DNA from: Opitutaceae bacterium
Lineage (GTDB): Bacteria > Verrucomicrobiota > Verrucomicrobiia > Opitutales > Opitutaceae
Assembly: GCA_947474995.1 (NCBI GenBank)
Contig: CANJNJ010000032.1
Coordinates: forward strand, 1-41,263
DNA: 41,263 nt
Reading direction: 5' to 3'
Made by a program: the position numbers and the translations under genes. A model generated the notes under the pieces. The model had not been told where the DNA came from. It searched no databases and saw nothing but the letters and a program-made list of their open reading frames with translations. This document shows, one piece after another, positions 16,321 through 41,263 of this stretch. Positions within the stretch are counted from its first letter, which is position 1; each line of letters starts with the position of its first letter.

Positions 16321-19017
<2,697 letters not shown>

Positions 19018-38129: not shown

Positions 38130-39227
38130 ATGTCCGAAACCTTCTACGTCGTTCCCGAAGAACAGCACAACGCCCTGGTCACCGCCGCCTATAAAAAGCG
38201 CGGTTACTCGAGCCAGGAAGCCGTGGCCGGCGCCAAATTCTGCGCTGAGGCCACGCGCCACGGCATCCGCACGCACAACGCCCTCAAGGCGCTGCATCTC
38301 GACCATCTCTTCGGCTCCGGCGCCGGCGGCTGCGTGCCGAAGGCGAAAATCGAGAAGGTCAAGCTGCCGTTCCGCGCGGCCCAGGTCTGGAACGCGAATC
38401 GCAAACTCGGGCAGGCCACCGGCTATGCCGCGATCGAAACCGCCATCAAGCTCGCCGACAAATACGGCGTCGGCATGGTCTCGGTCGACAATGCCTTCCA
38501 CTACCTCTGGGGCGGCGGCTACGTGATGGACGCCGCCAAGCGCGGCTACATCGCCTACACCAATTGTACCGCGTCGCTGGCCGAGGTCGTTCCTTTCGGC
38601 GGCAAGTTTCCCACGCTCGGCACCAATCCGCACTCGTGGGGCTTTCCCACCACCAGCGCCATCGGCTATCCCATCGTGATCGACTGGGCGACGTCCGTCG
38701 TCGCAATGGGCCGGGTCCAGCAGCTCGCGCGCGAAGGCAAGCAACTCCCGTCCGGCGCGGCCGTCGACGTCGACGGCAATGCGACCACCGATCCCACGAA
38801 GGCCAAATACCTCATGCCGTTCGGCGCGCACAAGGGCTACGGCCTTTCGCTGATGAATGAAATCATCGGCGCGTTCATCGGCGGCTCGCTGCCGACGCTG
38901 CGCAACCGCTGGGACCAGCAGCCCGACGAAAAGCACACCTGCGACTTCTTCTTCCAGGTCTGGAAACCCGAAGCCATGAACGCGGGCGCCTTTGCCAAGG
39001 GCCGCAACCAGGCGGAAAATGTGAAGGCCGTCATCGACGATATCCGCGGCCACGGCAACGAGGGCTGCATGCTCCCCGGCCAGCTCGAAGCGGAAGCGGC
39101 CGCCCGCTCCGCGAAAAACGGCGGACTCCTTTTCACCGAGGCCGAAATCAACGCCTTCAACGAACTGGCCTCCGAGGCCCGCAAGGCCCGTTGGAAACTC
39201 GCGGATTTCGCGGTCGCGCAATCCTAG
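38130..39227 (+). CDS. Ldh2-family malate/L-lactate/sulfolactate dehydrogenase-like oxidoreductase
   Basis: 365-residue NAD(P)-dependent oxidoreductase of the Ldh2/YlbC/DpkA family, which is unrelated to Rossmann-fold LDH. Conserved parts are ATRHGIRTHN (catalytic histidine region), GVGMVSVDNAFHYLWGGGYVMDAAKRG, LGTNPHSWGFPT and FGAHKGYGLSLMNEIIGAF. Family members reduce 2-oxoacids or cyclic imino acids (malate, lactate, sulfolactate, ureidoglycolate, piperideine-2-carboxylate). Its neighbour is a D-isomer dehydrogenase, so the pair may act on opposite enantiomers of one hydroxyacid. A hairpin terminator candidate follows the stop. Confidence 0.92.
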   Translation: MSETFYVVPEEQHNALVTAAYKKRGYSSQEAVAGAKFCAEATRHGIRTHNALKALHLDHLFGSGAGGCVPKAKIEKVKLPFRAAQVWNANRKLGQATGYAAIETAIKLADKYGVGMVSVDNAFHYLWGGGYVMDAAKRGYIAYTNCTASLAEVVPFGGKFPTLGTNPHSWGFPTTSAIGYPIVIDWATSVVAMGRVQQLAREGKQLPSGAAVDVDGNATTDPTKAKYLMPFGAHKGYGLSLMNEIIGAFIGGSLPTLRNRWDQQPDEKHTCDFFFQVWKPEAMNAGAFAKGRNQAENVKAVIDDIRGHGNEGCMLPGQLEAEAAARSAKNGGLLFTEAEINAFNELASEARKARWKLADFAVAQS

Positions 39228-39258
39228 TCGATTTTGCCTGCGGCGAAAATCTGGCCGA

Positions 39259-39286
39259 GGGAATTTGCGCGGCGCGAATTCCCTTT
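39259..39286. terminator. Bidirectional terminator candidate
   Basis: GGGAATT (39259-39265) pairs with AATTCCC (39277-39283), followed by TTTATTC. The loop TGCGCGGCGCG can itself fold. It lies between the convergent Ldh2-like and ERCC4 genes and touches the ERCC4 stop codon. Confidence 0.6.
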
Positions 39287-39971
39287 ATTCGAGGGCCCAG
39301 CGCATTCGGCGGGCGGTGAGTTCGCCGAGGCCATTGATGGTGGCAAGGTCTTCAACTGATGCGATGGCGATAGCTTGGAGTGAGCCAAAACGAGTGAGCA
39401 AACGATCGGCTCGCTCGGGGCCGATGCCAGGCAGGCCTTGCAGGATGAACAACTGCCGGGCGCGCTTGCCCTTGGGTCGACAGCCCGGTCTCGCCATGGC
39501 CCCACGGGCAAAGCGCTCCGCCTGACACCCAAGATAGAATAACAGCCGCGCGGATTCCGCGGCATCGCGGGCCCGCAACACGGCGAGTCCGTAAAACACA
39601 CTGACCGTGATGAGCGCACCCTGCATCGACTCGCGAGTTATCCGAATTCGGGGCAAATCCGAAGCGCTGCCTTCCAAAAGCAGAACCCCACGGCGTCCGT
39701 CTGCCGCCAGCATCGCCACCTGCTTGAATAACCGGACATCAACCACCGACTGCGCAAAATCCGCCAGAGTCTTTCGTTCCACCGCGAAACGATCTTCGAC
39801 CAAAAAGTCACCCACCGCCAGCCGTCGCACCTCAAGTCTCACTCCCTCCAACCGACGCAGTTCCCCGATAACCCCACCCGCCCTTTCTCGATCATCCGCC
39901 ACAATCCGCACCGAGGCCCGAGAACGGATCTCGCCCTCCTCACCCACAGGAAAATCGCCAATAGTGCTCAT
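39285..39971 (-). CDS. ERCC4/XPF-type nuclease with helix-hairpin-helix motifs
   Basis: 228 residues. The N-terminal ERCC4 nuclease domain has the full catalytic signature: ADDRER (Asp27, Arg28, Glu29), GDF (54-56) and VERKTLADF (Glu65-Arg66-Lys67, Asp71). The last 60 residues hold tandem helix-hairpin-helix DNA-binding motifs (LQGLPGIGPERADRLLTRFGSLQAI and LATINGLGELTARRMRWAL). This is the domain order of archaeal XPF/Hef and eukaryotic XPF-family endonucleases that cut branched DNA, without a helicase domain. I start at the ATG at 39971; the open frame beyond crosses palindromes and the tRNA gene. The DNA substrate and role in repair are inferred. Confidence 0.9.
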   Translation of the reverse strand: MSTIGDFPVGEEGEIRSRASVRIVADDRERAGGVIGELRRLEGVRLEVRRLAVGDFLVEDRFAVERKTLADFAQSVVDVRLFKQVAMLAADGRRGVLLLEGSASDLPRIRITRESMQGALITVSVFYGLAVLRARDAAESARLLFYLGCQAERFARGAMARPGCRPKGKRARQLFILQGLPGIGPERADRLLTRFGSLQAIAIASVEDLATINGLGELTARRMRWALE

Positions 39972-39982
39972 GTCCGAAAATC

Positions 39983-40007
39983 GGGTTTTCGCGCCGCGCG
40001 AAAACCC
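39983..40007. repeat. Perfect palindrome, copy A (GGGTTTTCGCG / CGCGAAAACCC)
   Basis: An 11-bp perfect stem with loop CCG, preceded by CCGAAAATC. It lies 12 bases upstream of the ERCC4 start codon on the opposite strand. A second copy is at 40068-40090. Confidence 0.9.
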
Positions 40008-40067
40008 TCGGCGCTCAATAAGCGTCGTCCCCGCGTATTTGTCTCGCCCCCACTCACCCCGAAAATA

Positions 40068-40090
40068 GGGTTTTCGCTCAGCGAAAACCC
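40068..40090. repeat. Perfect palindrome, copy B (GGGTTTTCGCT / AGCGAAAACCC)
   Basis: 11-bp arms around a single central C, preceded by CCGAAAATA as in copy A. It ends three bases before the tRNA-Arg gene, so it occupies the region where the tRNA promoter or 5' processing site would be expected. Confidence 0.9.
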
Positions 40091-40093
40091 AGT

Positions 40094-40170
40094 GGATCCG
40101 TAGCTCAGTTGGATAGAGCACTTGGCTTCGAACCAAGGGGCCGGGGGTTCGAGTCCCTCCGGATCCGCCA
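40094..40170 (+). tRNA. tRNA-Arg (anticodon UCG)
   Basis: A full cloverleaf of 77 bases: acceptor GGATCCG/CGGATCC, D arm GCTC-AGTTGGATA-GAGC, anticodon arm CTTGG-CTTCGAA-CCAAG with anticodon TCG (reads CGA), variable loop GGGCC, T arm GGGGG-TTCGAGT-CCCTC with one G-T pair, discriminator G and encoded CCA at 40168-40170. Confidence 0.97.
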
Positions 40171-40191
40171 TCTTTCGCTGCTCCCCGAGGA

Positions 40192-41263
40192 ATGACCCGC
40201 TGGACTTTCGCTTTTCCTGTTTTGCCCTCCGTCCTTCGCCACGGCGCCGCCGCGCTCGGGCTGCTGGCCGCGCTCATCCATCCGGCACCGGCCCAGACGA
40301 TTTCGAATCCACCACAAAGCCAAAGCGCAGCCATCGGTGCATCGGTCACTTTCAGTGTGACCGCCAGCGGCTCCAGCCCGGTGAGCTACCAGTGGCAACA
40401 CAACGGCACTGCTGTCAGCGGGGCCAACAGTGCGACGCTCGTGCTGGCGGACGTGCAGCCCGCCAACGCCGGCATCTACACCGTCGTCGTGACCAGCGGT
40501 GCCACCAGCGTCACTAGTTCCGCCATCCTCGGCCTCACCACCACCGCCAAACTGGTCGGCCTTGGAACCGAGTTTGCGAACATCTTCCATCCCGGGACCG
40601 GCTATACCTACGACCAGATTCTCCTCGCTGGAGCCGCGGCCAGCGTCACCGCCGATCCGGGTCAGATTTTGCGCCTGTCGTATGTCGACCTCACGGATGA
40701 CATCGTACAGGTGGAATTCAGCGGACCGGGCACCCTTTCGCTGTCGCTCGACAATCCCTCCGGCCCCGCCGCCCCCGCCAAATACAATCAACCCGGGATC
40801 AGCTATATGAAGGGACACGGTTCCATCGTGATTGCGGGCGCCACGGAGAACACCCAAGTCACCGTCTTCAGTGTCGGCAGTGTCACTTCGTCCAACGCCG
40901 CGCTTTTCCCACCGGGCATGACGTTCGACGGCGTGGCCGATCTCGCCTATCTCGCCATCCTGAGTGCGAACGGAAAATTCGGCGGCATCCGGACCGCCAA
41001 CACCAGCTTCTTCGCCGCCAAGGGGCTGACCGGAATATACGCCCCCGGAGTTCAGGTCGGCGGGCCGGTTTATGTCGGGGAGATCGACGCCTTCTCCGAT
41101 TCCCGCCCGGTGCTCGTTTTCGGCTTCACCAGCGAGGCGCGGATCACCGGCGGAGACCTGCGACAAACCAATGGACAGGCGGTGACCGTGAGCGGTCTCG
41201 CGCTGCTCAACTATGCCGCCGGCCTCAAGTCGAACGGCGCCGCTTTGCCCATCCAAACGAACC
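40192..41263 (+). CDS. Secreted protein with Ig-like domain, 3' end outside window
   Basis: The frame starting with the ATG at 40192 (MTRWTFAFPVLPSVLRHG) is open to the window edge (357 codons). A signal peptide is evident (AAALGLLAALIHPAPAQ, cleavage near 35). Residues about 37-115 form an Ig-like domain (NPPQSQSAAIGASVTFSVTA, VSYQWQHNGTAVSGANSATL, ANAGIYTVVVTSGATS) of the kind found in large surface proteins of Verrucomicrobiota. The rest is Gly/Ser/Thr-rich beta-type sequence without a recognised catalytic motif. It starts 21 bases after the tRNA-Arg CCA, so it may share the tRNA transcript. Total length and C-terminal sorting signal are unknown. Confidence 0.85.
   Translation, partial: MTRWTFAFPVLPSVLRHGAAALGLLAALIHPAPAQTISNPPQSQSAAIGASVTFSVTASGSSPVSYQWQHNGTAVSGANSATLVLADVQPANAGIYTVVVTSGATSVTSSAILGLTTTAKLVGLGTEFANIFHPGTGYTYDQILLAGAAASVTADPGQILRLSYVDLTDDIVQVEFSGPGTLSLSLDNPSGPAAPAKYNQPGISYMKGHGSIVIAGATENTQVTVFSVGSVTSSNAALFPPGMTFDGVADLAYLAILSANGKFGGIRTANTSFFAAKGLTGIYAPGVQVGGPVYVGEIDAFSDSRPVLVFGFTSEARITGGDLRQTNGQAVTVSGLALLNYAAGLKSNGAALPIQTN

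Follow-up and report, generated by a model that had tools for sequence, protein, structure and literature searches.

REPs are usually regarded as mobile repeats with side effects. In PMC3733652, Opitutus terrae (O. terrae) is described as highly enriched in GTAG repeats, and the tag is mutated to GTGG in most members of one of its families. The same paper names families of REP-like stem-loops that carry no tag, hosted by M. tuberculosis, D. radiodurans, Bordetellae, Brucellae and cyanobacteria. Ribosome stalling has been reported for E. coli REPs that lie fewer than 16 nt away from a stop codon (PMC12306157, citing Liang 2015), which sets a precedent for a function of hairpins found at gene borders. 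In the open-access literature, the O. terrae repeats are the only account of such hairpins in Opitutaceae that has been found, and none of the matches listed in a search for transcript maps naming Verrucomicrobia mentions the phylum. The hairpins described below are best read as a lineage-specific family within a group of Opitutaceae-type bacteria, and the pair located between an ERCC4 gene and a tRNA-Arg gene is a typical instance of it.

Paired palindromes between ERCC4 and tRNA-Arg genes

The window, that is the whole stretch of 41,263 nt which was analysed, hosts two palindromes in the gap separating the divergent ERCC4 and tRNA-Arg genes. Two more hairpins are found at the opposite end of ERCC4. 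The elements of the region are the following.

38130-39227, plus strand: malate/L-lactate dehydrogenase gene (Ldh_2), with the stop codon beside the third hairpin
39230-39251, plus strand: third hairpin, GATTTTGCC-TGC-GGCGAAAATC, with one bulge, 2 nt past the dehydrogenase stop codon
39259-39283, plus strand: fourth hairpin, GGGAATTTGCGC..GCGAATTCCC, imperfect, 1 nt from the ERCC4 stop codon
39285-39971, minus strand: ERCC4-HHH (XPF-like) nuclease gene (PF02732, E 7.6e-23; PF14520, E 9.6e-12)
39974-39981, plus strand: lead CCGAAAAT before palindrome 1, common to both window copies
39983-40007: palindrome 1, 25 nt, GGGTTTTCGCGC-C-GCGCGAAAACCC, arms of 12 bp, centre of 1 nt
40039-40051, plus strand: TTGTCTCGCCCCC, adjoining the hairpin and conserved with the relative G004
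40059-40066, plus strand: lead CCGAAAAT before palindrome 2, common to both window copies
40068-40090: palindrome 2, 23 nt, GGGTTTTCGCT-C-AGCGAAAACCC, arms of 11 bp, centre of 1 nt
40094-40170, plus strand: tRNA-Arg gene (anticodon TCG; Rfam tRNA, E 2.8e-15)

ERCC4 is flanked at both ends, being bracketed by four hairpins. The first-pass annotation had described twin perfect palindromes of 23 and 25 nt with a shared lead, and their coordinates and arms were verified. Both are perfectly symmetrical about a single central base, are separated by 60 nt, and are 88% alike over 25 nt; the single base interposed between CCGAAAAT and the palindrome differs in the two, being C or A. Their position against the ERCC4 start and the tRNA, also pointed out at that stage, is borne out by the distances. 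Palindrome 1 is located 11 nt from the ERCC4 ATG (39969-39971, minus strand), on its upstream side, and palindrome 2 ends 3 nt ahead of tRNA-Arg(TCG), which starts at 40094. Among the copies displayed, the CCGAAAAT lead is present only ahead of the two window copies. The TTGTCTCGCCCCC tract is a possible part of a promoter.

When the 122-nt gap was subjected to 2000 dinucleotide shuffles, one perfect stem of at least 9 bp was found in 8 of them, and two stems in none. The whole window features 3 perfect stems of at least 11 bp, where 30 shuffles averaged 0.23. A further perfect 11-bp palindrome of the T4/A4 style, CGGATTTTGCGCCGCAAAATCCG, is located at 17152-17174 within a predicted gene. Folded as RNA, palindrome 1 reaches -21.6 kcal/mol on the minus strand (shuffle mean -12.8), and palindrome 2 reaches -15.8 kcal/mol on the plus strand (shuffle mean -4.9). 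Both hairpins stay when the gap is folded jointly with the tRNA, and the cloverleaf is absent from the resulting minimum-energy fold. In an Rfam scan of positions 39200-40300 the tRNA was the sole match at gathering score, and no curated cis-regulatory RNA was detected.

Copy number and organization of the hairpins

The core TTTTCGC..GCGAAAA is found in 25 copies across the source genome, G000. GGGTTTT..AAAACCC occurs at 8 sites, and the strict palindrome GGGTTTTCGC..GCGAAAACCC at 3, which include both window copies; the reversed patterns used as controls gave 0 in each case. Among 27 genomes of the same genus, the core is present in 9 to 92 copies in nine (G022 92, G018 86, G003 39, G004 34, G000 25, G016 21, G005 18, G002 14, G039 9) and in 0 to 6 copies in the other 18, the reversed controls ranging from 0 to 3. 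On a tree of RecR plus YbaB, 3 changes suffice to account for the nine hairpin-rich genomes, whereas shuffles average 7.7 and none of 500 gets as low; these genomes are hence clustered, yet do not make up one clade on that tree.

The hairpins conform to a general plan, in which a T4 run is followed by a G+C apex and the complementary arm finishes in an A4 run. The outer pairs vary with pairing kept (AGG..CCT, GGG..CCC, GGA..TCC, and CAG..CTG in G022), and the inner arms of related stems read TTTTGGC, TTTTTGC or TTTTCCGCC. Centres are mostly 3-5 nt long, and measure 2, 3, 4, 5 or 16 nt between TTTTCGC and GCGAAAA. Hairpins repeatedly come as tandem twins separated by a few nt (L109, L114, L195, L227), some of which have a stop codon located between the two or across both. 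No flanking tag was found in the 8 bases flanking 106 hairpins, as every base accounts for at most 38% at each position with the two sides pooled, a format in which a tag restricted to a subset might escape.

Palindromes of other organization were also encountered. In G022 (L124, corresponding to G022:C9, and L125-L130) a dense composite repeat was found, in which CAGTTTTCGC..GCGAAAACTG stands beside GTGGGG/CCCCAC and GGCGCC-rich palindromes, and the core is present at 12 places (13 rows) within 14 kb; the G022 copies seem to belong to a composite repeat of another kind. G000 hosts a second family of paired palindromes, GGACNNYTC-TCC/GGA-GARNNGTCC (L053 8940-8983, L056 8013-8100, L064 17950-18036), with reverse-complement loops in the two copies, as in a REP dimer. 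Palindromes like TTTGTCATCTAATAGATGACAAA are located in the same genome at L175, L177, L183, L186, L187 and L155, and also in a stretch around a PF01797 gene. Two long perfect G000 hairpins of 21 and 17 bp (L061 10950-10996 and L052 6944-6982) have AAAGGCGTAGTGTCACC in common.

Placement at gene borders

Gene borders were assigned by a purpose-written codon-usage gene finder, which missed ERCC4, so that the border count gains nothing from the window copies. The sample included 106 hairpins, 36 from G003, 33 from G004, 25 from G000, 9 from G018 and 3 from G005, the last two sets being partial (9 of 86 and 3 of 18 core copies, taken by a stricter pattern or from the G018 ERCC4 locus). Ten hairpins located deep in a predicted gene and 7 lacking a flanking gene were set aside, leaving 89. 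In G000, 2 of the 25 core copies are found deep in a predicted gene.

As many as 50 of the 89 hairpins lie no more than 6 nt from the start or stop codon of a predicted gene, whereas placing them at random in the gaps they occupy would put 22.1 there (0 of 200,000 simulations reached 50); the count is to be read bearing in mind that a hairpin carrying TAG makes the stop codon beside itself. Thirty-eight of the 50 are at 3' ends, where hairpins often overlap TAG or TGA, and 12 at starts. Divergent gaps host 15 of the 89. Ten hairpin-adjacent starts were translated; those of RimO and RecR look right in view of the N-termini of these proteins. An earlier count on G000 alone gave a small excess (11 of 21 near borders vs 7.0 expected). 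Contrary to the border rule, only 3 of 39 hairpins in G022, which was counted separately, are within 6 nt of a border, vs 1.7 expected.

Conservation at homologous borders

Homologues of ERCC4 are encoded by 6 of the 27 genomes, the source genome included (E 8e-25 or better; weaker matches, from E 4e-6 upwards, were excluded from the count). A first scan of contigs returned no named ERCC4 relatives. A hairpin is present within 260 nt upstream of ERCC4 in all six homologues, and its place is identical in G002 and G003; the G002 hairpin, found at the same distance ahead of the gene, reads AGGTTCTCCCG-CCG-CGGGAAAACCT. In G003, where ERCC4 and tRNA-Arg are about 500 nt apart, hairpins stand against both genes, 4 nt before a candidate GTG start of ERCC4 and 5 nt before the tRNA. 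G004 has conserved palindrome 2 along with its flank, TTGTCTCGCCCCC..AAAATA, and the gene that comes next is a protein gene instead of the tRNA. In G004 the alignment of the ERCC4 homologue covers just residues 18-114, and the gene appears truncated. A comparison of five tRNA-Arg orthologues sharing at least 94% identity showed the hairpin at the 5' end only in G000 and G003; G023 has a different 8-bp stem there, and in G018 and G039 perfect stems of 7 bp or longer are absent.

These data bear on the suggestion, made in the first-pass annotation, that the window pair is a recent REP-type insertion. Its REP-like character agrees with the 25 scattered copies, many of which are at gene 3' ends. 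A recent insertion of the pair is contradicted by the hairpins retained at both genes in G003, by palindrome 2 and flank in G004, and by the ERCC4 hairpin of G002.

Shared positions are not confined to ERCC4. The comparison of hairpin-holding loci yielded 29 homologous gene pairs with hairpins within 400 nt in both genomes, several of which share one border. At one convergent border the stem has changed, being GGATTTTCGC..GCGAAAATCC in G004 vs GGGTTTTCGC..GCGAAAACCC in G005. Counterparts in G003 or G004 were recognized for at least nine G000 loci, eight identified by locus comparison plus the ERCC4 locus, a lower bound since only loci matching the hairpin pattern were compared.

Covariation at the ybaB-recR border

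RecR was located in 26 of the 27 genomes independently of hairpins. Twin hairpins, in which some pairs are G-U, are found between ybaB and recR in 6 of the 26 (G000, G002, G004, G005, G016, G018), and one and a half hairpins in G003. No hairpin of the T4/A4 family was detected in the same gap in the other 19, among which is the copy-richest genome, G022. Named RecR relatives (n=80) were titled Opitutaceae, Opitutae, Opitutia, Opitutus, Cephaloticoccus and the like, or Verrucomicrobia, which points to an Opitutaceae-like lineage. The gene pair is missing in 1 of the 80 loci; 14 of the remaining 79 have a perfect stem of at least 7 bp, which is of the family type in 7, and the gaps of 5 of these 7 are the same as those of G002, G003, G005, G016 and G018. 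Two further named records, L343 and L353, feature the twins. The ybaB stop codon falls within the loop of the first hairpin in G000, L343 and L353.

Eight sequences, G003 being left out for its one and a half hairpins, were aligned. In the alignment 97.4% of 151 cells are paired, against 91.0 in shuffles, and the covariation score is 0.258, against 0.153; none of 500 shuffles was as high in either respect. Both sides have changed in 5 of the 19 pairs, a number reached by 20 of 500 shuffles, and further pair types are no more numerous than in shuffles, 205 of 500 of which have at least as many. By sliding the partner 1-3 columns, pairing becomes 37-56%. RNAalifold returned the same two helices from the same alignment. 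Some individual copies thus appear to persist by vertical descent beyond their letters, through paired substitutions at the same places.

Read on the sense strand, single-sided changes at recR are G-U in 7 cases vs A-C in 1, an excess that would fit an RNA role. When the set is widened to 25 hairpins with one mismatch, 11 changes can be assigned, 4 of them G-U and 7 A-C. The one-mismatch hairpins found at ERCC4 in G002 and G003 both show A-C when read in the direction of that gene. The sense strand is not marked out by wobble pairs, and a DNA-level role consequently fits equally. The RNA step is an inference for border hairpins, and the wobble counts favour neither RNA nor DNA.

Hairpins and transposase genes

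RAYT-type genes, identified as PF01797 matches with RAYT and IS200-type members taken together, are present in 23 of the 27 genomes, and G000 has 7 matches. The stretches surrounding 20 of these genes (6 in G000, 10 in G022, 4 in G004; a subset of the matches, some ended by contig ends) have been searched, and the core hairpin was found in none. A related GGGTTTCCGC..GCGGAAACCC is located in L171 (G004), about 1.3 kb from its PF01797 match. One G000 stretch, L156, has palindromes of its own, CGCGGGTCTCTGACCCGCG / CGCGGGTCGGAGACCCGCG, on both sides (1637-1655 and 2346-2364), and another, L157, has a similar palindrome on one side (1622-1640). They are possibly the cognate REPs of those PF01797 genes.

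The hairpins resemble REPs in the broad sense, being short palindromes with many scattered extragenic copies. They do not appear to be RAYT-associated REPs of the GTAG type, which carry a tag and have cognate copies flanking a RAYT gene. The lack of a tag in the flanks of the 106 hairpins, and of copies in the 20 stretches around RAYT-like genes, sets them apart from typical RAYT REPs.

Discussion

Copies, placement, shared positions and covariation at ybaB-recR are observed features of the hairpins, and we are inclined to see in them an untagged, REP-like family located at gene boundaries, kept by descent and probably acting as transcript stem-loops. The main competitor is that they are ordinary REPs, non-autonomous elements spread by a RAYT-type transposase and surviving near gene ends, the window pair being a functionless REP dimer; the hairpins may even correspond to a published O. 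terrae family. Size, scatter, pairing, closeness to ORF ends and repeat-supplied TAG stop codons all agree with the REPs described in PMC3733652, and hairpin and PF01797 counts correlate across the 27 genomes (Spearman 0.79), though both also climb with genome size (0.57 and 0.70). This account is possible and yet rather doubtful, given the absence of the core from the 20 PF01797 stretches, the untagged flanks, the palindromes of another family adjoining the PF01797 genes of L156 and L157, and positions common to several species with paired changes. An identity as intrinsic (rho-independent) terminators, with palindrome 2 ending leftward transcription, is distinctly less probable. Some hairpins look the part: palindrome 2, read on the minus strand, has TATTTTCGGG behind it and a terminator-like score, G004 has TATTTTTGG at the equivalent place, and TTTATT comes after the fourth hairpin on the plus strand. 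Of the 46 tails that follow hairpins located at most 6 nt from a 3' end, however, just 4 have at least 5 T in 8 bases (tails outnumber the 38 3'-end hairpins, since one lying between convergent genes contributes two), and the tRNA-side hairpin of G003 has no T-rich tail. Moreover, the 12 of 89 hairpins at start codons and the 15 in divergent gaps have no upstream message to end. Lacking a U-rich tail in 42 of 46 cases, the hairpins are set apart from intrinsic terminators, and this identity has been rejected for the family, palindrome 2 read on the minus strand being an exception.

The first-pass annotation had also considered the pair as operators through which a dimeric regulator would control ERCC4 and tRNA-Arg, and had proposed a genome-wide count to settle the matter. 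Perfect dyads in a divergent region and two copies 88% alike speak for it. The 25 scattered copies, many at gene 3' ends, go against it by that very count, as do the 38 of 50 border-adjacent hairpins at 3' ends and the stems differing by paired changes at homologous borders, and a centre of 2, 3, 4, 5 or 16 nt is unacceptable to a dimer of fixed spacing. Copy number, placement and the variable centre led to the rejection of such operators, which are very improbable, and a regulator private to ERCC4 and the tRNA is unlikely. It is also improbable, about as much as the terminators, that the hairpins are border punctuation (at stops, starts and tRNA 5' ends) held in fixed positions through selection for the fold, and that ERCC4-HHH is a structure-specific enzyme handling them as cruciform or single-stranded DNA. 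All 6 genomes with ERCC4 are hairpin-rich (at least 9 copies), vs 3 of the 21 without it (Fisher p 0.0003, uncorrected for kinship), and G005 retains conserved hairpins with no ERCC4 gene detected, which argues against hairpins needing the enzyme.

The hairpins can keep the fold while the letters change, and therefore look like maintained punctuation rather than a switch for ERCC4 and tRNA-Arg. As members of a boundary family kept by descent, they would act mainly as transcript stem-loops marking gene borders. A hairpin located at a stop codon could slow ribosomes or nucleases, others could separate adjacent messages or set the 5' end of a message. Palindromes 1 and 2 would plausibly be the leader hairpins of the ERCC4 mRNA, at its 5' end, and of tRNA-Arg, respectively. 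Several copies retained at the same borders across species, with paired changes in the stem, make selection on the hairpin itself testable, and genomes of one genus with 9-92 copies or almost none are a natural series for asking how hairpins affect transcripts.

Comparison with known repeats

Like the GTAG and CGTC REPs portrayed in PMC3733652, window-type hairpins are stem-loops of 20-40 bp that are scattered between genes, form dimers, are often located beside ORF ends and supply TAG with their termini. They differ from GTAG REPs in that no terminal tag was found and that the 20 stretches searched hold no RAYT-like neighbour; the CGTC repeats have no RAYT neighbour either, according to the same paper. 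They differ from both in being found also 1-6 nt before start codons, and in the several positions shared across species with paired changes. Likeness to the O. terrae GTAG families was judged on the description given in PMC3733652. The E. coli REPs acting on translation are alike in that a stable hairpin is located within 15 nt of a stop codon, as stated in PMC12306157; they belong to another lineage, and window-type hairpins, whose function is predicted, border starts and a tRNA as well. Compared by description only, the untagged families named in PMC3733652 are alike in being palindromic repeats without a conserved terminal motif.
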